64,000 nucleotides of DNA from NCBI RefSeq assembly GCF_003932495.1, contig NZ_QZMT01000003.1:62001-126000 (forward strand), read 5' to 3'. The translations under genes were made by a program, and so were the position numbers. The notes beneath the pieces are model-generated. The model ran no database searches and had not been told where the DNA came from. It worked only from the letters and a program-made list of their open reading frames with translations. Source of the DNA: Guyparkeria sp. SCN-R1. Its GTDB lineage: Bacteria > Pseudomonadota > Gammaproteobacteria > Halothiobacillales > Halothiobacillaceae. Position 1 is the first letter of the stretch; each line of letters opens with the position of its first letter. This document shows, one piece after another, positions 20,633 to 57,332 of this stretch.

Positions 20633-20957
20633 CGGGGCCTCCTATCGGCGACCGGCACGAGCCGGGCGCGGGTGGTTCAAGCGGATAACGGGGCGCATCC
20701 ACCAGTGGGAAACGGGCGACCCGATGGCTTCGAGCTAAGCACAGGTGTTGGCCCGGACGCAACAAGCCGCTTACCCCACTGTGGCGCCAGCGCCACGCCA
20801 GCCGGATACACGCCCGGCGAGGCCACGCCGATTGGCAAAAATGTCGGGCGGGGGGTTGAGAAACTCTTGCCCCATCCCTAGGTCCGAACGTCAGTCAACA
20901 GAATATCTGATAGATTCCCAAGCCACGCTTATTCACTTTCATTCCTGGGGAGTATCC
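20633..20957. other. 325-bp divergent intergenic region
   Basis: It must hold the promoter of the doe operon (minus) and of the persulfide dioxygenase-rhodanese gene (plus). A short palindrome ATCT-GAT-AGAT lies at about 20905-20915. No clear -35/-10 pair or known operator is seen, and no ectoine-operon regulator gene (EnuR type) is present. Confidence 0.4.
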
Positions 20958-22385
20958 ATGCTGTTCGAAGCGTTCGAAGAGACTGGCCTGTCACAACTGA
21001 GCTATGCCGTCGGCTGCCAGCAGAGCAAGGAGCTGGCGATCGTCGACCCGCGCCGCGACATCGACATCTACCTCGATTTCGCCGAGGAAGAGGGGTACGT
21101 GATCCGGCACGTCATGGACACCCACATCCACGCGGACTACGCCTCCGGCGCGCGCGAACTGGCCGAGGTGACCGGCGCGAAGCTGCACCTGTCGGCCTAC
21201 GACGACAACGAGGTCTTCGAGGTGGGCTTCGACCACCTGCCGATGCAGGAAGGCGACTCGGTGCAGATGGGCAACGTCCGCATCGAGGCGCTGCACACAC
21301 CGGGCCACACCCCGGAGCACATCTCGTTCCTGGTCTACGATGGCGCCCGCTCGCCGGACGTCCCGGCCGTCGCCCTGACCGGCGATTTCCTGTTCGTCGG
21401 CAGCCTCGGCCGCCCCGACCTGCTGGGCGAAGAGGCCACCCGCGGGCTGGCCAAGCAGGCGTTCCACAGCGTGCGCGAGAAGCTCCACGGCCTGCCCGAC
21501 GGCCTGGAGATCCGCCCGGGGCACGGCGCGGGCTCGGCCTGTGGTGCCGGCATGTCGGGGCGCACCGTCTCGACGCTGGGCTATGAGCGCGCCGCCAACC
21601 CGCTGCTCGACCCGTCACTGACGGAAGACGAGTTCATCGACACGCTGCTCGGCAACCTGCCGCCGGCGCCGGATTTCTATCCGCGCAACAAGGTCACCAA
21701 CTCCGAGGGCCCCAAGCCGGTGCAGGGCATGGTCGACCTGCTGGCCGAGGAGATTGAGGTGTTCGACATCGACGATCTCAAGGCCCAGATCGACGCCGGC
21801 GCGGTGGTCATCGACATCCGCGACCGACTGGCCTTCAACGCCGCGCACATCAAGGGCTCGCTGGGCATCGAGTACGGCGACAATCTCAGCACCTGGGCCG
21901 GCTGGGTCGCTCCGCCGGACAAGCCGCTGATCCTGGTCGACCACGACGGTGACGACGAGCTGATCAGCGAGGCGATCCGCGCACTGGTACGCGTCGGGCA
22001 GGACAACGTGGCCGGCTTTCTCGACGGCGGCTTCGATGCCTGGCTCAAGGCCGGTGAGGCGTTCGAGAACATCCCGCTGGTCGACGCCGAAACCGCCAAG
22101 ACCGACCTCGACCACGACCGCCGCGCGCTGTGGGACGTGCGCGAGACCAGCGAATGGGACGAAGGCCACGCGCTGGGCGCGCGGCACACCCCGGCCCACG
22201 ACGCCCGCGACGGGCTCGACGGCATCAGCAAGGACGAGCCGGTCACGCTGGTCTGCGGCTCGGGCATGCGCTCGACCGTCGCCGCCAGCCTGCTGCGACG
22301 CGCCGGCTACACCAACGTCGCCAACCTCATGGGCGGCATGGACGCCTGGGAAGAGGCCGGCCTGCCGGTGGTCGCGAAGGATTAA
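20958..22385 (+). CDS. persulfide dioxygenase fused to two rhodanese domains
   Basis: A 475-residue protein. The N-terminal metallo-beta-lactamase fold has T-H56-x-H58-x-D60-Y61, H117 and D143, the ETHE1/CstB-like persulfide dioxygenase set with Tyr at the fourth motif position as in rhodanese-fused members. Two rhodanese domains follow. The first (about 265-355) has no catalytic cysteine (loop D-H-D-G-D-D); the second has C433 in C-G-S-G-M-R-S. It should oxidise glutathione persulfide or similar sulfane sulfur to sulfite and move sulfur to thiosulfate in the cytoplasm. GGGGAG precedes the start at 20958; the upstream frame extension is not used. It is a single-gene unit ended by a strong terminator. 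Confidence 0.9.
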   Translation: MLFEAFEETGLSQLSYAVGCQQSKELAIVDPRRDIDIYLDFAEEEGYVIRHVMDTHIHADYASGARELAEVTGAKLHLSAYDDNEVFEVGFDHLPMQEGDSVQMGNVRIEALHTPGHTPEHISFLVYDGARSPDVPAVALTGDFLFVGSLGRPDLLGEEATRGLAKQAFHSVREKLHGLPDGLEIRPGHGAGSACGAGMSGRTVSTLGYERAANPLLDPSLTEDEFIDTLLGNLPPAPDFYPRNKVTNSEGPKPVQGMVDLLAEEIEVFDIDDLKAQIDAGAVVIDIRDRLAFNAAHIKGSLGIEYGDNLSTWAGWVAPPDKPLILVDHDGDDELISEAIRALVRVGQDNVAGFLDGGFDAWLKAGEAFENIPLVDAETAKTDLDHDRRALWDVRETSEWDEGHALGARHTPAHDARDGLDGISKDEPVTLVCGSGMRSTVAASLLRRAGYTNVANLMGGMDAWEEAGLPVVAKD

Positions 22386-27892: not shown

Positions 27893-28891
27893 TCAGAACT
27901 CGAATTCCATCTTCTGGAAGACGCGCCCGGCGTTCTGGCCGGCGAGTTCGTCGTAAGTGTGCCAGTGCGAGAACTGGCTCTGGTCAAGCTCGTAGGCATC
28001 CTGCAGGCTGCCGCCCTCGTCGATGATCTTGCCGATCTCGGTGCGCAGGAACGTAAGGTAGTCAGCGGTGTAGTGCTGGACCGTTTCCATGTCGGTCGGC
28101 CCACCGTGGCCCGGGATGATGGTCTTGCCCTCGGCGACCTCGACGAACTTCGGCCATGTCTCCAACCAGGCGGCCGTGTCGGTGTACTCGAAGATCGGCA
28201 GCATGCGGATGTTGAAGGCCATGTCGCCGGCGATCACCACGTCACGCTCGGGGATGACCACCGAGATATCGCCCGGGGAATGGGCCTCGCCGAAGTAGAT
28301 CACCTCGGCGGTCATGCCGCCGAGGTCGAGTTCAATGCGGTCCTCGAAGGTGCGGCTGACGGAGACCGCCTCGTCGGTGCCTTCGGCCTTTTCCTCGGCG
28401 ATGCGCTTGAGCGTGTCGAGGTAGTCGGCCTTGTGGCTGTCGTAGTACTCGGCGGCATCGACGTGGGCGATGACCTCCGCACCCTGGTCAATCCAGTAGC
28501 CGGTCGCCAGGGACGAGTGCAGCTGACCGTTCTCGTTCACCACGTACTTGACCGGCACGTCGGTGCGCTTCTTGATTTCCTCGTGCAGGGCCTCGGCGAG
28601 CTGGTAGGAGGCGCCGGCATTCATGACCAGCACCGCGTCCTCGCCGATCACGAACGAGAGGTTGTTGTTATGCAACGAGTTCTCGTAGGTGTAGGGCTGG
28701 GTCGCACCGATCGCCGACCAGACGTCATCGGTGACCTTCTGCGGCATGTCGTAGAGCATCGAATCCGGCGCCTTATCGGGCGGATTGTCATCTTCGGCCA
28801 TCGCCGGACCGGCGACCAGGCCGGTGGTCGCCATCGCCAAAAGCGCACTACCGGCCAGGTTGCGCGTGCCTCTCATCCATTCGGTCAACAT
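27893..28891 (-). CDS. exported metallo-beta-lactamase-fold protein with degenerate metal site
   Basis: A 332-residue protein with a signal peptide (cut near A-M-A-E, residue 32). The fold of SoxH-like metallo-hydrolases is clear (A-G-D-M-A-F-N, G-E-A-H-S-P-G-D, P-G-H-G-G-P-T-D). The normal HxHxDH block is replaced: residues 118-127 read V-N-E-N-G-Q-L-H-S-S, so both histidines and the aspartate/histidine pair are lost. The other ligands (His in G-E-A-H, Asp in A-G-D, His in P-G-H) remain. It may bind one metal or none. AAGGAG precedes the start at 28891; the frame upstream is not used. A palindrome upstream matches those of the sulfur locus at 54.6 kb. Confidence 0.82.
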   Translation of the reverse strand: MLTEWMRGTRNLAGSALLAMATTGLVAGPAMAEDDNPPDKAPDSMLYDMPQKVTDDVWSAIGATQPYTYENSLHNNNLSFVIGEDAVLVMNAGASYQLAEALHEEIKKRTDVPVKYVVNENGQLHSSLATGYWIDQGAEVIAHVDAAEYYDSHKADYLDTLKRIAEEKAEGTDEAVSVSRTFEDRIELDLGGMTAEVIYFGEAHSPGDISVVIPERDVVIAGDMAFNIRMLPIFEYTDTAAWLETWPKFVEVAEGKTIIPGHGGPTDMETVQHYTADYLTFLRTEIGKIIDEGGSLQDAYELDQSQFSHWHTYDELAGQNAGRVFQKMEFEF

Positions 28892-29035
28892 ACGGTTCCA
28901 CTCCTTGCCTTGGGCAATACCCACAAGCATTTTGGGTTTAACTATTAGCGAGCTAACCATCTCGCCGTTCACGCGAGAAAACAACCCCACGAACCATTCG
29001 GGTTTTTGATTCGAAAGAACATACGTTAATCAGCA

Positions 29036-29053
29036 TTCAATCAACCAGTTGAT
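29036..29053. promoter_or_regulatory. third copy of the TTCAAT-N6-TTGAT operator
   Basis: TTCAATCAACCAGTTGAT differs at only three of 18 positions from the palindrome at 54605-54622. It lies about 145 bp before the metallo-beta-lactamase-fold gene, overlapping a possible minus-strand -35 box (TTGATT). The surrounding 150 bp are clearly AT-rich and also hold a TTAGC-GA-GCTAA palindrome at 28946-28957. Confidence 0.5.
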
Positions 29054-29078
29054 CGATTCAGGCTGAAATGTCTGGGGG

Positions 29079-49170: not shown

Positions 49171-50127
49171 TCAGGCCGTCAACCGGACTTTCAGGAACTG
49201 GGCGACGAGCAGCACGGCAAGCCCCAGTGCCAGGAACCAGCCCAGCAGGGAATGACGCTCCCGGCGGGTGTCCTGGGCCTCCGCCTTCGGCTCGTGCCGC
49301 TCGATGACGTCGGTAACCGACAGCAGGGCCTCGCGATCACCGGCGGCAATCGCCTCGCCACCGGACAGTCGTGCCAGATCCTCAAGGGTCGGGTCACCGC
49401 TTGCCGGGCCGGCACCGCCGGGGGCGAGATTGATGGTGAACAGCTCGATGTTCTCGGCGCGCGCCAGGGTCAGGGCCTCGGCCGGGCTCATCTCGCCGCC
49501 GGTATTGACCCCATCAGTCCAGACCAGCAACTGCGGTGGCGCCTCGCCACGCTCGCGGCGCTCGGCGATCGATTCCATCGCCACGGCCAGGCCGTCGCCC
49601 AGCGCGGTGGCGCTGCCGTCGAGACCCGGTTCGAGCTGCTCGATCCAGAAACGCAGCGCGCCGTGATCGTCGGTCTCGGGCACCAGCGTGCCGGCCGAGT
49701 CGGTTACCACCATCAGGGAAAAGCGATCCTGCGGGTGGGCGGCGATGAATGCGTCCAGTGCCTCGCGCATCACGCCCATGCGCGAGACCGGCTGCCCCTC
49801 GGCGTCGCGGAAATCGCGGGTCGACATGCTGGGACTGGCGTCCACCAGCAGCACGATCGACCGGGCCGGCTCGTCGACCTGCAGCGACTCGCCCACCCAG
49901 ACCGGGCGGGCCAGCGCCACGACCAGGCTGGCCAACGCGAGCAACAGCAGGGCCAGCAACCAGCGCTGCCCGCCACGGGGGCCACCCTCGGCCGGATCGC
50001 GCCCAAGCGCCGGATGGCGCAACAGGCGCGAGGGTGCGCGATCACGCACCCGGCGCGCCCAGGCCGGGTAAATCAGCGGCAGGGCGACCAGCAGCAACAA
50101 GACCCAGGGCGAATCGAAGCCGATCAT
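49171..50127 (-). CDS. batA: BatA-like VWA membrane protein
   Basis: A 318-residue protein: N-terminal helices (about 8-24 and 56-74), a von Willebrand A domain (about 90-285) with a perfect MIDAS motif D96-A-S-P-S100, and a C-terminal helix (about 292-312). BatA and BatB form a complex in the membrane tied to MoxR. The ATG at 50127 overlaps the DUF4381 stop by ATGA. Unlike its downstream partner it can bind metal. Confidence 0.88.
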   Translation of the reverse strand: MIGFDSPWVLLLLVALPLIYPAWARRVRDRAPSRLLRHPALGRDPAEGGPRGGQRWLLALLLLALASLVVALARPVWVGESLQVDEPARSIVLLVDASPSMSTRDFRDAEGQPVSRMGVMREALDAFIAAHPQDRFSLMVVTDSAGTLVPETDDHGALRFWIEQLEPGLDGSATALGDGLAVAMESIAERRERGEAPPQLLVWTDGVNTGGEMSPAEALTLARAENIELFTINLAPGGAGPASGDPTLEDLARLSGGEAIAAGDREALLSVTDVIERHEPKAEAQDTRRERHSLLGWFLALGLAVLLVAQFLKVRLTA

Positions 50128-50642
50128 GCCGTCGGCCTCCGCCACAGCGCGCGGCGCATCGCGCGCAGTCGTTCGACGACCGCCGTCCGCCAGGAGTCGG
50201 GGGCCGGCCTCGAATGTACCGACTGCCGACCGAAGCGGGCGTGATCGATCTCACGCACCCAGGCGGACCACGGCTCGGCCAGCCGCTCGCGCCACGGGGC
50301 CCGGCCGCCGTGCTGCCAACGGCCAATCGCCCGGATCACCTCATCCTGCAGCGCGCGCTCTCCGGCCGCATCGATGACGCGCGCCGACTGGCGCTCCAGC
50401 TGCCACAGGGCCCACCACAAACGCAGATCACCCCGATGGCGCCAGAGCCACCAGCCGGCCAGCAACAGTAGCGCGATGGCCACAACCATCAGCCACGCCA
50501 ACGAGCCCTCGTCGGCAGGCGCCGATGCATCGCCGGCACGTTGCACCAGCCAGGGAGCGGTGTAGATATCGACCAATCCCTCGGGCGCCTGCTCGGGCAG
50601 GCCGCCGCTGGGGTGCGCCCAATCGCGGTAGCCTTCACTCAT
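50124..50642 (-). CDS. DUF4381 membrane protein of the MoxR/Bat operon
   Basis: A 172-residue protein with one membrane helix (about 48-66) and a cytoplasmic tail. It matches the DUF4381 family, which lies between DUF58 and batA in MoxR operons. The N-terminal L-V-D-I-Y-T-A-P-W-L-V motif is seen. ATGA overlap at both ends (start 50642 with DUF58; stop with batA). Function unknown. Confidence 0.8.
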   Translation of the reverse strand: MSEGYRDWAHPSGGLPEQAPEGLVDIYTAPWLVQRAGDASAPADEGSLAWLMVVAIALLLLAGWWLWRHRGDLRLWWALWQLERQSARVIDAAGERALQDEVIRAIGRWQHGGRAPWRERLAEPWSAWVREIDHARFGRQSVHSRPAPDSWRTAVVERLRAMRRALWRRPTA

Positions 50643-51679
50643 GCCGCAGACCCCGCTGCACGCGCCAGGGCCACCGGGGCTTCGGCAAGCCACTCGGCCG
50701 GTTCGGCCTCGGCGGGCAACGCCAGGAAGGCCGCACCCAGTGCCTCGGCCGATTGTCGCCAGGCCTCCAGGCGTTCGTGCTGCCGGCTGGCGAATGCCTC
50801 GCGCCAGCGGCGATTGCCGGTATCCAGCCAGCGAGCCCGATTGCCCGCTTCGAACGCGACCAGTCCCAGGTCGGGCATATTGAGCTCGACCCGGTCGGCC
50901 ACCGAGACGAAAATCAGGTGATGGGCGGCGGCCAGCGGTGCCCAGTCGATGACCCGACCGGGACCGCTATCGGACAGGCAATCGGAGAAGACCATGACCA
51001 CCGAGCCGGCGGGGAGACGCTGCAAGAGGCGTTGGCGCAGACCCGGCCAGTCGACCGGTTGGGCCTCCTCGCAGGTCTCGCCGGCCGCCTCGGCCAGCTC
51101 GGCGAGGCGCTGCAGGATCGCCCCCTGACCGGTCACCGGCCCGGCGGCATGGTGACCGGGGCAAAGCTGCTCGCCGATGCCGTGGATCTCGACGGCCAGG
51201 TTCTGCCGTAGCGCACCGGCGGCGAAGGCATGGGCGGCGAGCAGTGCCTGGGTGAGCTTGAGCCGCCGACGGGTACCGAAGCGCATCGCGGCACCGCAGT
51301 CGACCACCAGGTGGGCCTGGCGCTGGGCCGGCTCGCGGTGCACCCGCACCACCGGCTCGTTGGCCCGTGCCGAGATGCGCCAGTCGATGCGGGCAGCCGG
51401 CTCGCCCGGCTGGTAGGCACGCAGTTGTTCGAAATCCAGCCCCTCGCCCAACCGGCGCGCGAGCTGGTCACCGGACAGACGGGTGGCCGTGGGGAAGCTT
51501 TCCTGCACCAAGGCGGGCAGGCGCTCTCCGTCCGCCCAGGCAACAGCGATCTCCTCGGTCGACGGGGCGACGCCAACCCGCGGGCCGGGCGCCTGATCGC
51601 GGGCCTGCCGACGGCCGATCGCGCCCCGCAGGGCGGCCGCCGCCCGGCCGATCAGTCCCTGAATCACGGTGTGGGTCAC
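50639..51679 (-). CDS. DUF58 protein
   Basis: A 346-residue soluble protein of the DUF58 family, with the block R-A-Y-Q-P-G-E-P-A-A-R-I-D-W-R near residue 88-102 and a VWA-like fold beyond. DUF58 proteins always travel with MoxR ATPases and may be their client or adaptor. GTG start at 51679 overlaps the moxR stop (GTGA). Confidence 0.88.
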   Translation of the reverse strand: MTHTVIQGLIGRAAAALRGAIGRRQARDQAPGPRVGVAPSTEEIAVAWADGERLPALVQESFPTATRLSGDQLARRLGEGLDFEQLRAYQPGEPAARIDWRISARANEPVVRVHREPAQRQAHLVVDCGAAMRFGTRRRLKLTQALLAAHAFAAGALRQNLAVEIHGIGEQLCPGHHAAGPVTGQGAILQRLAELAEAAGETCEEAQPVDWPGLRQRLLQRLPAGSVVMVFSDCLSDSGPGRVIDWAPLAAAHHLIFVSVADRVELNMPDLGLVAFEAGNRARWLDTGNRRWREAFASRQHERLEAWRQSAEALGAAFLALPAEAEPAEWLAEAPVALARAAGSAA

Positions 51680-52638
51680 GGCGCCGGGATCAGCTCGAGC
51701 AGGCGATCGATTACCGCGTCGCGGGTCAGGCCGCTGACCATGGCGCGCGGGCCGAGGATGATGCGGTGACGCAGGGCGTCGGCCGCCAGCTTGATCAGGT
51801 CGTCGGGGACGATGTAGTCACGCCCCTCCAGGTAGGCGGCGGCGCGGGCGGCCTGCACCCAGGCCAGCGCGCCACGCGGCGAGGCGCCGACCAACACCTG
51901 GTCGGCGAGATCCGGATCGAGCTCGCCGACCTTTCGGGTGCCCGCGACCACGTCGACCACCCAGTGCTGCAGGGCCTCGTCGCAACGCACCTGGCGCACC
52001 GAATCGCGCGCGGCCAGCACCTGATCGACGGTGATGTTCTTCGCCTCGCCCACCGGGTTGCTCCCGAGCGTGCCGTCGAGGGTGCGCTTGAGGATGTCAT
52101 ATTCGTCCTCGCGCTCGGGGTAGTCGAGCGACACGTGCAACATGAAGCGATCCATCTGCGCCTCGGGCAGCGGATAGGTGCCCGACTGCTCGAGCGGGTT
52201 CTGCGTGGCCATGACCAGGAACAGCTCGGGCAGATCACGGCTGTGACCGGCGACGGTGACCTGGCGCTCGGCCATCGCTTCGAGCAGCGCCGACTGCACC
52301 TTGGCCGGGGCGCGGTTGATCTCGTCGGCCAGCACGATCTCGTTGAACAGCGGGCCCGGCTCGAAGGTGAACTCGCGCGTCTCGGGGTGGTAGACCTCGT
52401 TGCCCAGCAGGTCCGCGGGCAGCAGGTCGGGGGTGAACTGGATGCGCTTGAAATTGGCGTGCACGCCCTCGGCCAGCGCCTTGATCGCGGTGGTCTTGGC
52501 CAGGCCCGGCAGGCCCTCGACCAGCAGGTGACCGCCGGTGAGCAGACCGATCAGGAGCCGGTCGACCAGCTCGGTCTGGCCGACGATGTAGTGCCCGAGG
52601 TGGGCGCGCAGGTTCTGGATGGGCATCTGTTCGGTCAT
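51676..52638 (-). CDS. moxR: MoxR-family AAA+ ATPase
   Basis: A 320-residue AAA+ ATPase with Walker A G42-L-P-G-L-A-K-T49, Walker B V-L-A-D-E-I-N (near 102) and sensor motifs (A-T-Q-N-P-L-E). MoxR proteins act as chaperones that help mature or insert metal in partner proteins bearing VWA domains. Here its ATG overlaps the stop of the ArsR-rhodanese gene by ATGA, an unusual partner, so production is tied to that regulator. Confidence 0.93.
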
Positions 52639-53336
52639 GGCTCGACTCGGCTTGTCCGCGGTTCGGTTTCGGTGTCGTCAATGCTGGTGGGCAGGCCGGC
52701 GAGCTTCCACTCCGGAAAGCCCGATTCCAGCCTCCGGGTTTGGAATCCCGCCTCGCGCAGGCGGGCGACCGCCTCGAAGGAAAAGGTGCAGTAAGGGCCG
52801 CGGCAGTAGGCGATCACCTCGCGCTCGGGGTCGAGCTCGGCCATGCGCCGCTCGAGGTCCCTGACCGAGACGTTGATCGCCCCGGGGATGTGGCCCGCCT
52901 CGTATTCCTCTTCCGGGCGCACGTCGATCAGCGTGACCAGCCCCTTGCGACAGCGCTCGATCAGCTCCTCGGCGGAAACCGGCTCGAGCGCGTCCTTCTG
53001 GTGCAGGTGGGCGTCGACCATCTGGCGCACCTCGGCCAGGTGCCGCTCGCCGACGCGGCGGAACACGTCCAGCAGTTCGACCACGTCATCGGCGGCAATG
53101 GAATAGATCACCTGCTTGCCCTCGCGGCGGGCGGTCACCAGCCCCGCCTGCTGCATGCGCTGCAGGTGCTGGGAGGTGTTGGCCACGGAGAGCCCGGCGA
53201 CCCGCGCCAGCCCATCGACCGAGCGCTCGCCCTGCGCCAGGTGCTCGAGCAACTCCAGCCGACGGCCGTTGGAGAGCACCTTGCCCAGCCGGGCGAACTG
53301 GTCGTTGAGATCCTGCTTGAATCGTTGTGTCGTCAC
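52635..53336 (-). CDS. ArsR-family regulator fused to a rhodanese domain
   Basis: A 233-residue protein. The N-terminal winged helix (about 8-95) has the ArsR recognition helix S-V-A-N-T-S-Q-H-L-Q-R-M (50-61). The C-terminal rhodanese domain (about 120-225) has C178-R-G-P-Y-C183. There is no cysteine in the DNA-binding half, unlike SqrR/BigR; the only others are C129 in the linker and C183. So the rhodanese cysteines are the likely sensors of sulfane sulfur. GTG start at 53336 with GAGAGG upstream; the longer frame is not used. It lies 20 bp after yeeE and overlaps moxR by ATGA. It likely binds the palindromes at 54604-54677. Confidence 0.9.
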   Translation of the reverse strand: MTTQRFKQDLNDQFARLGKVLSNGRRLELLEHLAQGERSVDGLARVAGLSVANTSQHLQRMQQAGLVTARREGKQVIYSIAADDVVELLDVFRRVGERHLAEVRQMVDAHLHQKDALEPVSAEELIERCRKGLVTLIDVRPEEEYEAGHIPGAINVSVRDLERRMAELDPEREVIAYCRGPYCTFSFEAVARLREAGFQTRRLESGFPEWKLAGLPTSIDDTETEPRTSRVEP

Positions 53337-53356: not shown

Positions 53357-54466
53357 TCACCCGGCGCAGCCGGCATCGGCGCGGCGGCGCTGGATACGAA
53401 GCGTAATCCAAGCGCCCAGCATGATCGCTGCGATCGACAGCATCGAGCCCAGCGCCAGGGTGGACAGGCCGGTCAGGCCGTGACCGACCGTGCAGCCCAT
53501 CGCCAGCACGGCGCCGACCCCGACCATCGCCGCGCCGATCACCGTGCGCAGCCATTCCCCGATCGCCCGCGGCGCCGAGAACTGCACATCGCGCCGCAGC
53601 AGGGCGCTGACGAGGCTGCCAAGGAACACGCCGACCACCGCCACCACGCCGAAGGTGATCGTGGAGCTGTTGTCGACATTCTGCAGGAAATACACCACGT
53701 CACCCAGCGGCGCACTGAAGGTGAACGACTGCGTGCCCAGGCCCTCCTGCGGCATCGTTTGCATCATCGAGGCCATGTCCGCGGCCTGGCCGGGCGCACC
53801 ACCGGTGACCCAGAACCCCAGCCCGACCGCCGTGCCGAGCAGCAGCACGCCGAACCAGGCCAGGCCGTTGCCGCCCAGCGGCAGCCAGCGCCAGCTCACC
53901 GCCAGCAACAGCGCCGCCAGCGCAGCGGCAATCAGACCGTAGACGATGGCGCCTCCACCGACCAAGGCGGCCAGGTCCTGGTGCGGGATGCCGATGGCCG
54001 TGAGATCGACGCTCAACGCCCCCACCCAGGGCAGGAAGGCGGTCTGGAACAGGCTGGTGCGCGTCATGGCGTAGGCCGCCACCGCCATCACCACGATGGC
54101 GACCAGCGCCTGCAGGCTGCCCTGCGAGGTCCGCACCAGGCTGCGCACCGGGCAGCCCCTGGCGAGCACCATGCCCGCACCGAACAGCAAGCCGCCGATC
54201 AGGTAGCGCCCCCAGGCGAAGTCGGCGGTGCGATAGGGCGGCCGGGTCTGGTCGAGATCGACGGCGGCGAACCACTGCACCAGCGTGGTCACCACGATGG
54301 CCACGCCGATCGCACCCAGGTAGACCGCCATGCGTCCGCCATCGCGCTCGCCCATGTAGGCGCTCATGCCGCCAAGCAGGCAGAAGCGTGTGAATTGTGC
54401 CGCGGCCCCGAACACCACGGAAAGCACCAGGACGTACAGCAGGTACTGGGAAATCGCCGGATCCAT
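53357..54466 (-). CDS. YeeE/YedE-family sulfur transporter
   Basis: A 369-residue membrane protein with about nine helices. Conserved cysteines C29 (F-C-L-L-G-G), C105 (A-R-G-C-P-V-R-S-L) and C325 (A-M-G-C-T-V-G-H-G) match the cysteine relay of thiosulfate-uptake protein TsuA. Substrate is probably thiosulfate or another sulfane sulfur species. GAGGG precedes the ATG at 54466. It is the first gene of the ArsR-rhodanese/MoxR run. No TusA gene is adjacent. Confidence 0.9.
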   Translation of the reverse strand: MDPAISQYLLYVLVLSVVFGAAAQFTRFCLLGGMSAYMGERDGGRMAVYLGAIGVAIVVTTLVQWFAAVDLDQTRPPYRTADFAWGRYLIGGLLFGAGMVLARGCPVRSLVRTSQGSLQALVAIVVMAVAAYAMTRTSLFQTAFLPWVGALSVDLTAIGIPHQDLAALVGGGAIVYGLIAAALAALLLAVSWRWLPLGGNGLAWFGVLLLGTAVGLGFWVTGGAPGQAADMASMMQTMPQEGLGTQSFTFSAPLGDVVYFLQNVDNSSTITFGVVAVVGVFLGSLVSALLRRDVQFSAPRAIGEWLRTVIGAAMVGVGAVLAMGCTVGHGLTGLSTLALGSMLSIAAIMLGAWITLRIQRRRADAGCAG

Positions 54467-54603
54467 ACCCGAGCCCTCTTCTTTGTTGACACGCCGAGCC
54501 GAGCCACGCCGACCGACCATTCATCCATTGCCATCCCGCGTCGCGTGACGCGCACCGCCCACTCGACCCCGGGCACCGCAAGCCGGCAAGACAGATGGCG
54601 ATG

Positions 54604-54677
54604 ATTCAATCAGTCAATTGATTCTTCTGTCAAGCGGCACGAACCCGCTTGACTTTAATTCAATTGAGTAATTGAAT
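54604..54677. promoter_or_regulatory. divergent promoters with two matching operators
   Basis: O1 is TTCAATCAGTCAATTGAT (54605-54622) and O2 is TTCAATTGAGTAATTGAA (54659-54676): the same TTCAAT-N6-ATTGAW palindrome, 54 bp centre to centre. For the plus strand a -35 TTGACT (54649-54654) and -10 TTGAAT (54672-54677) are 17 bp apart, the -10 inside O2. For the minus strand TTGACA (54628-54633) and TTGAAT (54604-54609) are 18 bp apart, the -10 inside O1. A dimer bound at each would shut both promoters. Confidence 0.75.
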
Positions 54678-54708
54678 GATGCCCGTACACACCAGTGGAG
54701 GGCAACCC

Positions 54709-55434
54709 ATGTTCCTGATCCAGCACCCCTGCGAATTCAGCTCACTCGCCTATCTGTTCGGCTGCACCGGCAAGGGCCGGGCCATGGCCGTCGACGTGCA
54801 TCTCGACGACGTCGACCGCTTCGTCGAGATGGCGGAAGAGAAGGGCGTGGAGATCAACTTCGTGGTCGACACCCACGTCCACGCGGATCACAAGACGGGC
54901 GGCCCGGAACTGGCCAAACGCACCGGCGCGGAATACGTGCTGCATGAATCCGCGCCGGTGAAGCACCCGTTCCGCGGCGTGGCGCATGGCGAGCGTCTGG
55001 AACTGGGCAACGTCAGCGCCCAGGTGCTGCACACCCCCGGGCATACCGACGACAGCATCTGCCTCTTGGTGACCGACCACTCGCGCACCGACGAGCCGTG
55101 GTTCCTGATCACCGGGCACACGCTCTTCCCCGGCGGCGTCGGCCGCCCCGACCTGCACGGTCGCGAACGCGAGATGGCGGAAAAGCTCTACGACTCGCTT
55201 TATGGCCCGATCCTCAGCCTGCCGGATCACATCGAGATCCTCGCCGGCGCGCAGGCCGGCAGCGTCTGCGGTGGCGGCATTAGCGGCAAGCCGATGTCCA
55301 CGCTGGGCTTCGAGAAGCGCCACAACAACGGGCTGATCCGCGAGCGCGGCAATTTCGTCGAGACCATCGCCTCGATCGAGCTGCCGCCGGTCGAGGAAAT
55401 CAAGGCCTTCTACGCCTTCAACACCGGCAACTAA
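54709..55434 (+). CDS. ETHE1-like metallo-beta-lactamase-fold protein
   Basis: A 241-residue protein. T-H56-V-H58-A-D60-H61 and H112 are in place, as in persulfide dioxygenases and glyoxalase II relatives, but the Asp ligand of the T-G-D motif is His137 (I-T-G-H-T-L-F). C-terminal G-x-x-x-G-K-P-M-S-T-L-G-F-E-K-R is as in the ETHE1 group. It probably acts on persulfide or another sulfane sulfur. GGAGGG precedes the ATG at 54709. It heads a three-gene run opposite yeeE, under operator O2. Confidence 0.88.
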   Translation: MFLIQHPCEFSSLAYLFGCTGKGRAMAVDVHLDDVDRFVEMAEEKGVEINFVVDTHVHADHKTGGPELAKRTGAEYVLHESAPVKHPFRGVAHGERLELGNVSAQVLHTPGHTDDSICLLVTDHSRTDEPWFLITGHTLFPGGVGRPDLHGREREMAEKLYDSLYGPILSLPDHIEILAGAQAGSVCGGGISGKPMSTLGFEKRHNNGLIRERGNFVETIASIELPPVEEIKAFYAFNTGN

Positions 55435-55459: not shown

Positions 55460-55948
55460 ATGAAAATCACACCGACACTCAAATCAGGCCTGGTCGCCAG
55501 CGCGATGATCTCCAGCCTGACCCTCGGCGCCACGTCGCCGGTCATGGCGGAAAATGAGGAACTCATCGATGCCATGGAGGGCTATGTGATGTTCCAGGAA
55601 TACCACGGCGCCACCATCCGTCCGGAGCAGATCCCGGCGGATCAGTGGGAGAACATCACCATCGTCGATACCCGCGATGCCGGTCAGTACGCCGAGGACC
55701 ACATCCCCGGCGCGATCAACATCGAGTGGCGCCAGATCCTCGAGCGCCGCGACGAGCTGCCGACCGACGAGATGGTACTGGTGTACTGCAATACCGGCTC
55801 GCTGTCGGCGCAGGCCGGTCTGATGCTGCGCCTGGCGGGGATGGACAACGTCCGCATCCTCCAGGACGGCTTCACCGGCTTCCAAAAGGCCGGTGGCTTC
55901 GAGGCGAACGCCCGGGCCCAGGAAGAGGCCGAGGAAGCGGGCGAGTAA
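55460..55948 (+). CDS. periplasmic rhodanese
   Basis: A 162-residue single-domain rhodanese with a Sec signal peptide (cut near V-M-A-E, residue 30) and active-site loop C110-N-T-G-S-L-S. It should move sulfane sulfur in the periplasm, perhaps to the YeeE transporter. It starts 25 bp after the ETHE1-like gene, thus in the same unit. A weak hairpin follows. Confidence 0.9.
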   Translation: MKITPTLKSGLVASAMISSLTLGATSPVMAENEELIDAMEGYVMFQEYHGATIRPEQIPADQWENITIVDTRDAGQYAEDHIPGAINIEWRQILERRDELPTDEMVLVYCNTGSLSAQAGLMLRLAGMDNVRILQDGFTGFQKAGGFEANARAQEEAEEAGE

Positions 55949-56081: not shown

Positions 56082-57332
56082 ATGGATATCACCCACCGGG
56101 ATCTCACTCACGGCATTGCCGCCAACCGCGGCCAGTTCGTCCAGTTTCTGCTGCAGGTCTTCTTCGTCGGCGCGCTGGTGGGCATGACCCGCACCGTGCT
56201 GCCGGTGCTCTCGGAGTCGGACTTCGGCCTGGCCGCGGGGGCATTCACCACGTTGGCAAGCTTCGTGGTGATCTTCGGCGTGATCAAGGCCACCCTCAAC
56301 CTGCTGGCCGGGCGCTTTTCTGACCGGTACGGGCGCAAGCGCGTGCTGGTGGCCGGTTGGCTGTTCGCGATCCCCGTGCCGTTCCTGCTGCTGATCGCCG
56401 ATTCCTGGGGCTGGGTGCTGCTGGCCACGGTGTTCCTGGGCATCAACCAGGGCCTGGCGTGGTCGATGGCGCTCAACAGCAAGCTGGACCTAACCCACGC
56501 CCACCAGCGCGGGCTGGTCAACGGCGCCAACGAGTTCGCCGGCTACGGCGGCGTGGCGGTGGCGGGCTATCTCGCCGCGATTGCCGCCGAGCATCTCGGC
56601 GCGCGTGAGGGCCTGTTCTGGTTCGGCCTGGCTGTGATCATCCTGGCCCTGGCCCTGGCCATCTGGATGGCGCGCGACACCCTGCCCTGGGCGCACGCCC
56701 AGCAGAAGTCCAGCGGCAACGGCACCGCCCCGGCACGCCGCTCCGGGCTGAGCTTCTTCCTGCATGCCACCTGGGGCAATCGCAGCCTGCTGGCCATCAA
56801 CCAGGCCGGCCTGGTCGAGAAGTTCACCGACACCATCATCTGGCTGTTCGTGCCCATCCTCTTGGTCACACGCGGCGCGGATCTGGTGACCACCGGTTTC
56901 CTCGTGGGCATCTACGGCGTGGTCTGGGGCGCCGGCCAGCTGATCACAGGGCCGACCTCGGACAAGCTCGGTCGGCGCGGCCTGATCACCTGGGGCATGT
57001 GGCTCTGCGGGGCGGGGATCATCGCGATCGTCCTGACCCACTCGGCCTGGGCCTGGGGACTGGCGCTGGCGGTGACCGGCGTGGGCATGGCGATGCTCTA
57101 CCCGACCTTGGGGGCGGCGGTGGCCGATCACTGCGAGCCGGTCGAACGAGCCGGCATCCTCGGCGTATATCGATTCTGGCGCGACTTCGGCTATGCCGTG
57201 GGCGCGCTGGCGCTGGGGCTGGTGGCGACGCTCACCGGCGGCATCGAGGCGGGCTTCTGGTTCGTCGGGCTGAGCATGGCGCTGTCCGGGCTGTGGGTGG
57301 CGCTGGGGCTCGCGCCGCGCGGTCAGGATTGA
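56082..57332 (+). CDS. MFS transporter of the sulfur locus
   Basis: A 416-residue major facilitator with 12 helices; the signature G-R-F-S-D-R-Y-G-R-K-R after helix 2 is clear, and the counterpart G-P-T-S-D-K-L-G-R-R-G after helix 8. AGAGG precedes the ATG. Its place behind the ETHE1-like and rhodanese genes suggests export or import of a sulfur compound (for example sulfite or thiosulfate), but the family does not tell the substrate. Confidence 0.85.
   Translation: MDITHRDLTHGIAANRGQFVQFLLQVFFVGALVGMTRTVLPVLSESDFGLAAGAFTTLASFVVIFGVIKATLNLLAGRFSDRYGRKRVLVAGWLFAIPVPFLLLIADSWGWVLLATVFLGINQGLAWSMALNSKLDLTHAHQRGLVNGANEFAGYGGVAVAGYLAAIAAEHLGAREGLFWFGLAVIILALALAIWMARDTLPWAHAQQKSSGNGTAPARRSGLSFFLHATWGNRSLLAINQAGLVEKFTDTIIWLFVPILLVTRGADLVTTGFLVGIYGVVWGAGQLITGPTSDKLGRRGLITWGMWLCGAGIIAIVLTHSAWAWGLALAVTGVGMAMLYPTLGAAVADHCEPVERAGILGVYRFWRDFGYAVGALALGLVATLTGGIEAGFWFVGLSMALSGLWVALGLAPRGQD

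Follow-up and report, generated by a model that had tools for sequence, protein, structure and literature searches.

A conserved palindrome as candidate operator of a putatively autoregulated ArsR-rhodanese fusion regulator between divergent sulfur genes of Guyparkeria

When two similar palindromes lie between divergent units of sulfur-related genes, and one of the units encodes a regulator fused to a sulfurtransferase domain, the question arises as to whether that regulator binds them and what it might sense. Such an arrangement is found in Guyparkeria sp. SCN-R1 (Halothiobacillaceae), within the 64,000-nucleotide stretch of contig NZ_QZMT01000003.1 that was analysed here as a whole (the window). 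At 51-57 kb, a minus-strand unit comprises a YeeE/YedE-type sulfur transporter gene (Sulf_transp; 53357-54466; PF04143, 163.9 bits, with matches to the TsuA models falling below their cut-offs), the gene for the ArsR-rhodanese fusion (52635-53336, presumably starting at a GTG codon) and a gene for a MoxR-type AAA ATPase (51676-52638; PF07726). The plus-strand unit consists of a PDO-like metallo-beta-lactamase-fold gene (54709-55434), a single-domain rhodanese gene (55460-55948; PF00581, 64.3 bits) whose product has a signal-peptide-like N-terminus by eye, and a gene for an MFS transporter (56082-57332; PF07690, 133.6 bits), and the two palindromes, O1 and O2, lie between both units. Because the MoxR gene overlaps the stop codon of the regulator gene by ATGA, it is probably transcribed from O1 too. 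Beyond MoxR, the minus strand continues with genes of DUF58 and, judged by eye, vWA type (49171-52638), and this set, MoxR included, is also found behind ArsR-rhodanese genes elsewhere in Halothiobacillaceae and at three loci of other families (L069, L071, L075).

The name PDO expresses a resemblance only, to persulfide dioxygenases, and it comes from weak profile matches: the protein encoded at 54709-55434 reaches 22.5 bits with Lactamase_B (gathering score 22.7), stays below the cut-offs of the GloB and Blh models, and scores 54.7 bits against the cut-off of 625 of NF040641, the model for persulfide dioxygenases of the ETHE1/Blh type.

The initial annotation had described the two sites as sharing TTCAAT-N6-ATTGAW, and both the letters and the coordinates are confirmed, with exact fits at O1 (TTCAATCAGTCAATTGAT, 54605-54622) and O2 (TTCAATTGAGTAATTGAA, 54659-54676). 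With up to two mismatches allowed, this pattern gives 8 strand-matches in the 64-kb window against a shuffle mean of 1.07, and 0 of 100 shuffles reach 8. The motif extends by one base on each side to ATTCAA-N8-TTGAWT, so the operators are best described as unstranded 20-bp sites at 54604-54623 (O1, ATTCAATCAGTCAATTGATT, 11 of 12 motif positions) and 54658-54677 (O2, ATTCAATTGAGTAATTGAAT, 12 of 12). In the whole genome (2,418,072 bases, 68 contigs), the exact extended motif occurs at O1 and O2 only; a single mismatch adds a third site, O3, and three other places, against 0 for the reversed control. When the pattern is written as ATTCAA-N8-TTGAAT and up to two mismatches are tolerated, 19 distinct places are found, namely O2 with none, O1 with one and 17 with two, compared with 2 places for the reversed control. 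A 12/12 site is also present upstream of the PDO-like gene at 11 further loci in 10 genomes of Halothiobacillaceae.

Does the palindrome belong to the ArsR-rhodanese gene, or merely to this locus? Homologues of the regulator were sought in 144 genomes, with near-full-length defined as E below 1e-45, and 50 genomes carry such a homologue among the matches listed; 40 larger loci and a further 20 regions were fetched for comparison, and homologue counts throughout are those among the matches listed. In the 160 bp before each ArsR-rhodanese gene, ATTCAA-N8-TTGAAT was scored over its 12 half-site positions and compared with shuffles. Among 19 loci of other families, 17 have a site of at least 10/12 (shuffle mean 0.46) and 15 a site of at least 11/12 (shuffle mean 0.04, maximum 1). 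Sites of at least 11/12 precede the gene at five of 12 Halothiobacillaceae loci outside the genus (shuffle mean 0.02) and at five of 10 loci within it (shuffle mean 0.01); at the threshold of at least 10/12 the counts are 10 of the 12 and, again, five of the 10. At the five genus and two family loci that miss this lower threshold, the regulator gene is preceded by a collinear yeeE gene, or by collinear PDO and YeeE genes, and the site is found ahead of these. All 22 of the 22 Halothiobacillaceae loci, the window included and two coming from one genome (G007), thus have a site of at least 10/12 before the regulator or the collinear genes that precede it. In G007 the regulator and its unit are present twice, on different contigs (L044 and L047), perhaps through a duplication or a mixed assembly, and the two regulators share 94% and 91% identity with that of the window.

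The same picture emerged from a second set, in which 80 loci were reduced to 72 by leaving out one match at a contig edge (L240) and seven presumed duplicates: 63 of the 72 have an upstream site of at least 10/12 (shuffle mean 1.89), 58 of at least 11/12 (0.14) and 41 a perfect 12/12 (0.00). By the taxonomic classes given in the records, the lower threshold is reached at 7/8 alphaproteobacterial and 6/7 betaproteobacterial loci, the rest being mostly gammaproteobacterial; the best upstream site in the single record labelled Acidobacteria is 9/12. It should be kept in mind that the loci are related, so that these upstream tests overstate independence, and that 16 of 101 non-duplicate loci have no upstream site of at least 10/12. 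Only a spacer of 8 is enriched: it occurs at 20 of 31 loci, where no other spacer from 0 to 15 exceeds 3, and in the second set at 58 of 72, where none of the others from 2 to 14 exceeds 6. When the 63 sites are aligned, the commonest base at spacer positions accounts for 44-83%, and a weaker outer symmetry, CWAnT...AnTWG, is seen; since the sites were picked for reaching at least 10/12, only the spacer and the flanks of this logo are informative.

The association also holds at the level of genomes. Of the 50 genomes with a full-length gene among the matches listed, 32 contain ATTCAA-N8-TTGAAT without mismatch, at 41 sites against 2 for the reversed control; of the 94 others, 21 do, at 24 sites against 26 (Fisher p 1.4e-6). 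The 94 include one genome, G125, that has a gene fragment at a contig end with an exact site in front. Judged against the controls, 41 versus 2 and 24 versus 26, the motif is in excess solely in the regulator-carrying set. Of the 41 exact sites, 30 are no more than 4 kb from the regulator gene, 20 of them no more than 300 bp. The others were inspected save for three in G070: one, on a contig other than that of the regulator, has PDO-like and MFS genes on either side (L268), two are upstream of MoxR genes (G011, G079) and one precedes a TauE-like gene (G109); four adjoin genes without an evident sulfur role (L260, L262, L266, L267) and are perhaps due to chance.

What, then, binds the palindrome? 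A sceptic could hold that nothing does, and that O1 and O2 are chance or compositional repeats of the kind that AT-rich promoters generate; promoters are indeed AT-rich, and two-mismatch matches do occur at 17 places in the genome. Against this stand the two exact ATTCAA-N8-TTGAWT sites in 2.4 Mb, the reversed control of 0 even at one mismatch, and the conservation of the motif across classes relative to dinucleotide shuffles. A chance origin of O1 and O2 is refuted by the genome-wide scan and by both upstream-region shuffle tests, and we regard its probability as negligible: the scan of the whole genome and of relatives, which the initial annotation had proposed as a check, shows that the motif is not scattered at random. 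Another regulator might instead bind the palindrome and merely share the neighbourhood, for the sites are at divergent promoters where further proteins could act. However, the motif follows the ArsR-rhodanese gene through changing neighbour genes, and its loss is accompanied by variants of the recognition helix: a site is present upstream of 72 of 78 homologues with the helix N[TA]SQH and of 13 of 23 others (p 2e-4, kinship ignored; this set and the cysteine set below take in only rows with at least 100 bases of upstream sequence). Moreover, within the ArsR type, the two other genes of this genome that score over the family cut-off have no site above 8/12 in the flanking stretches fetched. A different binder is therefore very improbable. 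Because exact sites exceed the reversed control only in genomes that carry the gene, the ArsR-rhodanese protein, already named as the obvious binder in the initial annotation, remains the best candidate, its palindrome accompanying the gene across proteobacterial classes, and from these sequence patterns we strongly infer that it binds.

O3 is a weaker case. Of the 18 positions in its core (TTCAATCAACCAGTTGAT, 29036-29053), 15 are the same as in O1, and it is located upstream of a SoxH-like gene with a metallo-beta-lactamase fold (27893-28891, minus strand), whose start codon is about 150 bp away. That resemblance and that position, both reported when the site was put forward as a third copy, stand; its membership of the regulon does not. 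In its unstranded 20-bp form (ATTCAATCAACCAGTTGATC, 29035-29054) it scores only 10/12, and with two mismatches it is not distinguished by sequence, since the genome holds 17 such places. A genuine, weaker operator of the SoxH-like gene would be consistent with the identity to O1, with the intergenic position and with equivalents at the same distance from the orthologue in G001 (11/12), G002 (10/12) and, degraded, G009 (9/12); but the best upstream score is at most 9/12 in five regulator-carrying genomes (G004, G005, G007, G008, G010) and also in G006, where no regulator was found among the matches listed, and O3 has no TTGAC at the distance that is fixed in Halothiobacillaceae and lies, as stated, about 150 bp from the start codon. 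We consider an operator role for O3 improbable and have rejected it as unproven, as one of 17 two-mismatch sites that is retained in few congeners. Other conserved blocks, around AATCAAAAACCCGAATGG and GATGGTTAGCTCGCTAATA, are seen in several congeners in the same region before the SoxH-like gene (28900-29060), and these suggest that a different regulator may act there.

If O1 and O2 are operators, their placement should make sense in terms of promoters. On the minus strand, a -35-like hexamer for a leftward promoter, TTGACA (54628-54633), lies 4 nt from O1, and on the plus strand a -35-like hexamer for a rightward promoter, TTGACT (54649-54654), lies 3 nt from O2. The far half-site of O1, TTGAAT (54604-54609, minus strand), is 18 nt from TTGACA, and that of O2, also TTGAAT (54672-54677), is 17 nt from TTGACT, so both are -10-like in position. 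The same geometry recurs in the family: of 29 Halothiobacillaceae sites (O1 and O2 included), 26 have TTGAC[ACT] on one strand at a distance of 3 or 4 nt, each with TTGAAT as its far half-site, 17 or 18 nt from that hexamer. With that fixed distance of 3-4 nt from TTGAC, the half-site falls where a -10 element would be expected, and the spacing fits a design of -35, operator and -10 in which the half-site would double as the -10 element. The spacing of the far half-sites would agree with the earlier claim that each operator covers a -10 box. The promoter scan of 54460-54720 found no sigma-70-type promoter, since the scanner requires an A at position 2, which TTGAAT does not have. TTGAAT is a poor -10 hexamer, and it is solely the TTGAC spacing that points to promoters here. 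The stricter pattern TTGAC-N5-palindrome is found at O1 only, the gap at O2 being one shorter. A 9-bp inverted repeat, GTCAAGCGG...CCGCTTGAC (54629-54653), is built around the two back-to-back -35-like hexamers, and was scored as a terminator-like hairpin by a terminator scan. This arrangement is not universal. In other families, represented by 80 loci, most -10-like hexamers are found either 21-25 nt ahead of the first base of the palindrome (35 cases) or at +22 (21 cases), with peaks at these two places, so the operator is probably nearer to the start point there, and its position differs between Halothiobacillaceae and other families.

Which genes would such operators control? In Halothiobacillaceae, palindromes are found at promoters of PDO-like, MFS, YeeE and regulator genes, and the proposal of a regulon with its own operator motif is supported in the form of a small sulfur regulon made up of these four. 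From the layout of the window, O1 would control the leftward yeeE / arsR-rhodanese unit, running on into the MoxR gene, and O2 the rightward PDO-like / rhodanese / MFS unit. The MFS gene is a case in point. Of 27 family genomes, 20 have a close MFS orthologue (E below 1e-80). The regulator accompanies it in 19 of these; the remaining one, G006, with a completeness of 79%, has no regulator among the matches listed. Three genomes that are more than 90% complete and have no full-length regulator among the matches listed (G014, G018, G020) are also without a close MFS orthologue, and two have the regulator and no close MFS orthologue (G011, G012). Within the family, close MFS orthologues therefore occur almost only with the regulator. 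In 12 of the 19 rows the MFS gene is not behind another unit gene, and a site of 10-12/12 is located 52-114 bp upstream; in the remaining 7, the present genome included, it follows PDO-like or rhodanese genes and the best score is 8/12. The second PDO-like gene of the window (20745-22385, plus strand), which encodes a metallo-beta-lactamase fold with, judged by eye, tandem rhodanese-like parts behind it, seems to be outside the regulon since no motif site with up to two mismatches is nearby.

Outside Halothiobacillaceae the cast is different. A homologue of FA_hydroxylase is present in 78 of 110 loci and a homologue of a VTT-rhodanese fusion in 60 of 110, with 7 duplicates or Halothiobacillaceae members included in these neighbour counts, and with VTT-rhodanese, TauE-like and vWA-type genes mostly named by tblastn match or by eye. 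Across these 110 loci, a site of at least 11/12 lies within 350 bp upstream of the FA_hydroxylase gene 71 times and of the regulator gene 89 times, mostly as one shared site, which is typically located between the two genes. In loci L183-L259 and L062-L081, the regulator is most often found beside FA_hydroxylase and VTT-rhodanese fusion genes with one shared palindrome. In G109, an extra perfect palindrome (L261:3264-3283) lies 23 bp before a gene resembling TauE/SafE permeases, on a contig other than that of the regulator, and this gene is likely a member of the regulon. The MoxR gene was rejected as a general member: in a test that covered 31 of the 50 regulator genomes (G011, G012 and 29 from other families) and 32 of the 94 other genomes (60 loci, L338 excluded), a site of its own of at least 10/12 precedes it at just 2 of 29 loci in the former, both 12/12 (G011 and G079), and at 0 of 30 in the latter, so MoxR genes are mostly without a site of their own.

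The regulator itself combines two recognisable parts. Its ArsR/SmtB-type domain scores 74.9 bits with NF033788 (HTH_metalloreg; cut-off 55) and has Foldseek matches to 2kko and 3gw2, while the rhodanese domain, with the loop CRGPYC, scores 70.7 bits with PF00581 (cut-off 22.2). The two cysteines of the loop are nearly invariant: Cys181 is kept in 109 of 110 homologues and the other in 110 of 110 (41 of 41 each in an overlapping set), the loop reads CRGP[YHF]C in 106 of 110, and the sole exception at Cys181 (L269) is a sequence with several stops. The HTH domain has no conserved cysteine: Cys occupies any given alignment column ahead of the rhodanese domain in at most 9 of the 110 homologues. 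Sensing by two cysteines of the ArsR domain does not fit this pattern, and the rhodanese loop is therefore the natural candidate for the sensor. The structure model (mean pLDDT 81.5, pTM 0.70) agrees with two confident domains joined by a low-confidence linker (residues 100-114 below 50), and is silent on any sulfur-driven movement of the HTH. The best 50 Foldseek matches are separate ArsR or rhodanese chains, none with both domains, and among the titles and abstract openings listed in searches of an open-licence library, which has few subscription papers, none describes an ArsR-rhodanese regulator or its operator.

Several related regulators are known. The BigR/SqrR repressors carry a conserved cysteine pair in the ArsR domain. 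BigR is described as controlling a TauE-related transporter together with a dioxygenase/sulfur transferase of the ETHE1 type (PMC5823870). YgaV is described as a repressor of its own operon that acts where the polymerase binds, close to sites of the SqrR-like form ATTC-N8-GAAT, and as sensing with two of its cysteines (PMC9774250). The window's regulator is like BigR, SqrR and YgaV in being an ArsR-type winged helix at a promoter of sulfur genes. It is unlike YgaV in having a fused rhodanese domain and no conserved HTH cysteine, unlike BigR in scoring 43.2 bits against the cut-off of 155 of the equivalog model NF040642, and unlike BigR/SqrR in its operator: ATTC-N8-GAAT is found in 0 of 92 upstream regions and ATTC-N12-GAAT in 60 of 92, one of the 92 (L240) having almost no upstream sequence. 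The SqrR-type spacing is thereby rejected, and by cysteines, model cut-off and operator spacing the sequence places the regulator outside the BigR/SqrR group. SoxR and sHdrR of Hyphomicrobium are described as ArsR-type repressors that respond to sulfane sulfur and are encoded with YeeE-like (SoxT) transporters and sulfur-oxidation genes (PMC12423496, PMC11582611), SoxR forming a sulfur bridge between two conserved cysteines (PMC12423496). The association of an ArsR-type regulator with a YeeE-like transporter and sulfur genes is shared with the present locus; in contrast to the window's regulator, the accounts of SoxR and sHdrR compared here mention no rhodanese domain (PMC12423496, PMC11582611).

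The nearest solved ArsR domain among the matches listed is a fragment of Mb0332 (2kko, 46% identity). We take Mb0332 to be the same protein as mycobacterial Rv0324, carrying a rhodanese domain and homologous to the window's regulator. In one report, Rv0324 shifted its own promoter in EMSA (PMC9953421), which by analogy would agree with autoregulation; the account compared here gives no operator sequence or signal. Rv0324/Mb0332 belongs to another phylum.

We propose, from the computed motif and its conservation, its association with the regulator gene, the layout of the promoters and the conserved cysteines, that O1 and O2 are probably the operators of the adjacent, autoregulated ArsR-rhodanese repressor, which would sense sulfane sulfur through its rhodanese domain. 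Repression and the sulfane-sulfur signal are suggested by the rhodanese domain, the target genes and the operator position, and a site of at least 10/12 stands before the regulator gene itself at 63/72 and 17/19 loci, and before it or its collinear predecessors at 22/22 family loci; binding and the cysteine chemistry of the loop are likewise presumed. A dimer would bind the 20-bp palindrome ATTCAA-N8-TTGAAT, which in Halothiobacillaceae fills the gap between -35 and -10 with its far half-site at -10, and so should exclude RNA polymerase. With back-to-back promoters and one operator each, O1 would govern yeeE, the regulator (autoregulation) and then MoxR, and the O2 promoter the PDO-like gene, the rhodanese and the MFS transporter. 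Rising sulfane sulfur (persulfide or polysulfide) would load onto the catalytic Cys181 (P0001 numbering) and probably be resolved by Cys186 of the same CRGPYC loop, a change that would reach the HTH dimer and free the DNA, so that enzymes consuming or moving sulfur are made. The rhodanese domain could be an enzymatic side-function rather than the sensor, and a repressor that binds the palindrome and answers another signal (e.g., sulfite, a metal, an oxidant or redox state), with the rhodanese as one input or as an enzyme, is an alternative that we hold to be unlikely, though less so than a different binder. It draws on the commonest divergent partner, FA_hydroxylase, often with the VTT-rhodanese fusion, which is not an obvious sulfane-sulfur enzyme, and on the MoxR/DUF58 genes that join the unit in Halothiobacillaceae; however, the loop cysteines are almost invariant, the targets and neighbours repeatedly include PDO-like, YeeE, TauE-like, DsrE-like and rhodanese genes, and the HTH domain is without conserved cysteines for a metal.

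Sulfane-sulfur sensing through the rhodanese domain thus being our preferred reading, a broader one follows that we would put at even chances: ArsR-rhodanese fusions may form a separate class of sulfane-sulfur repressors, widespread in Proteobacteria, in which a sulfurtransferase domain rather than the DNA-binding domain senses via its CRGP[YHF]C loop, and a single 20-bp operator has changed very little while the regulon was rewired between an FA_hydroxylase/VTT-rhodanese unit and the PDO-YeeE-MFS genes of Halothiobacillaceae. The ArsR-family sulfane-sulfur repressors compared here sense with cysteines of the DNA-binding domain, whereas here the DNA-binding domain is joined to an enzyme domain that handles sulfane sulfur. 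An apparently unstudied fusion protein becomes a directly testable sensor, and its 20-bp operator would make the targets of the regulator predictable in many genomes, as a tool for finding reactive-sulfur genes such as the MFS transporter and the FA_hydroxylase/VTT-rhodanese unit.
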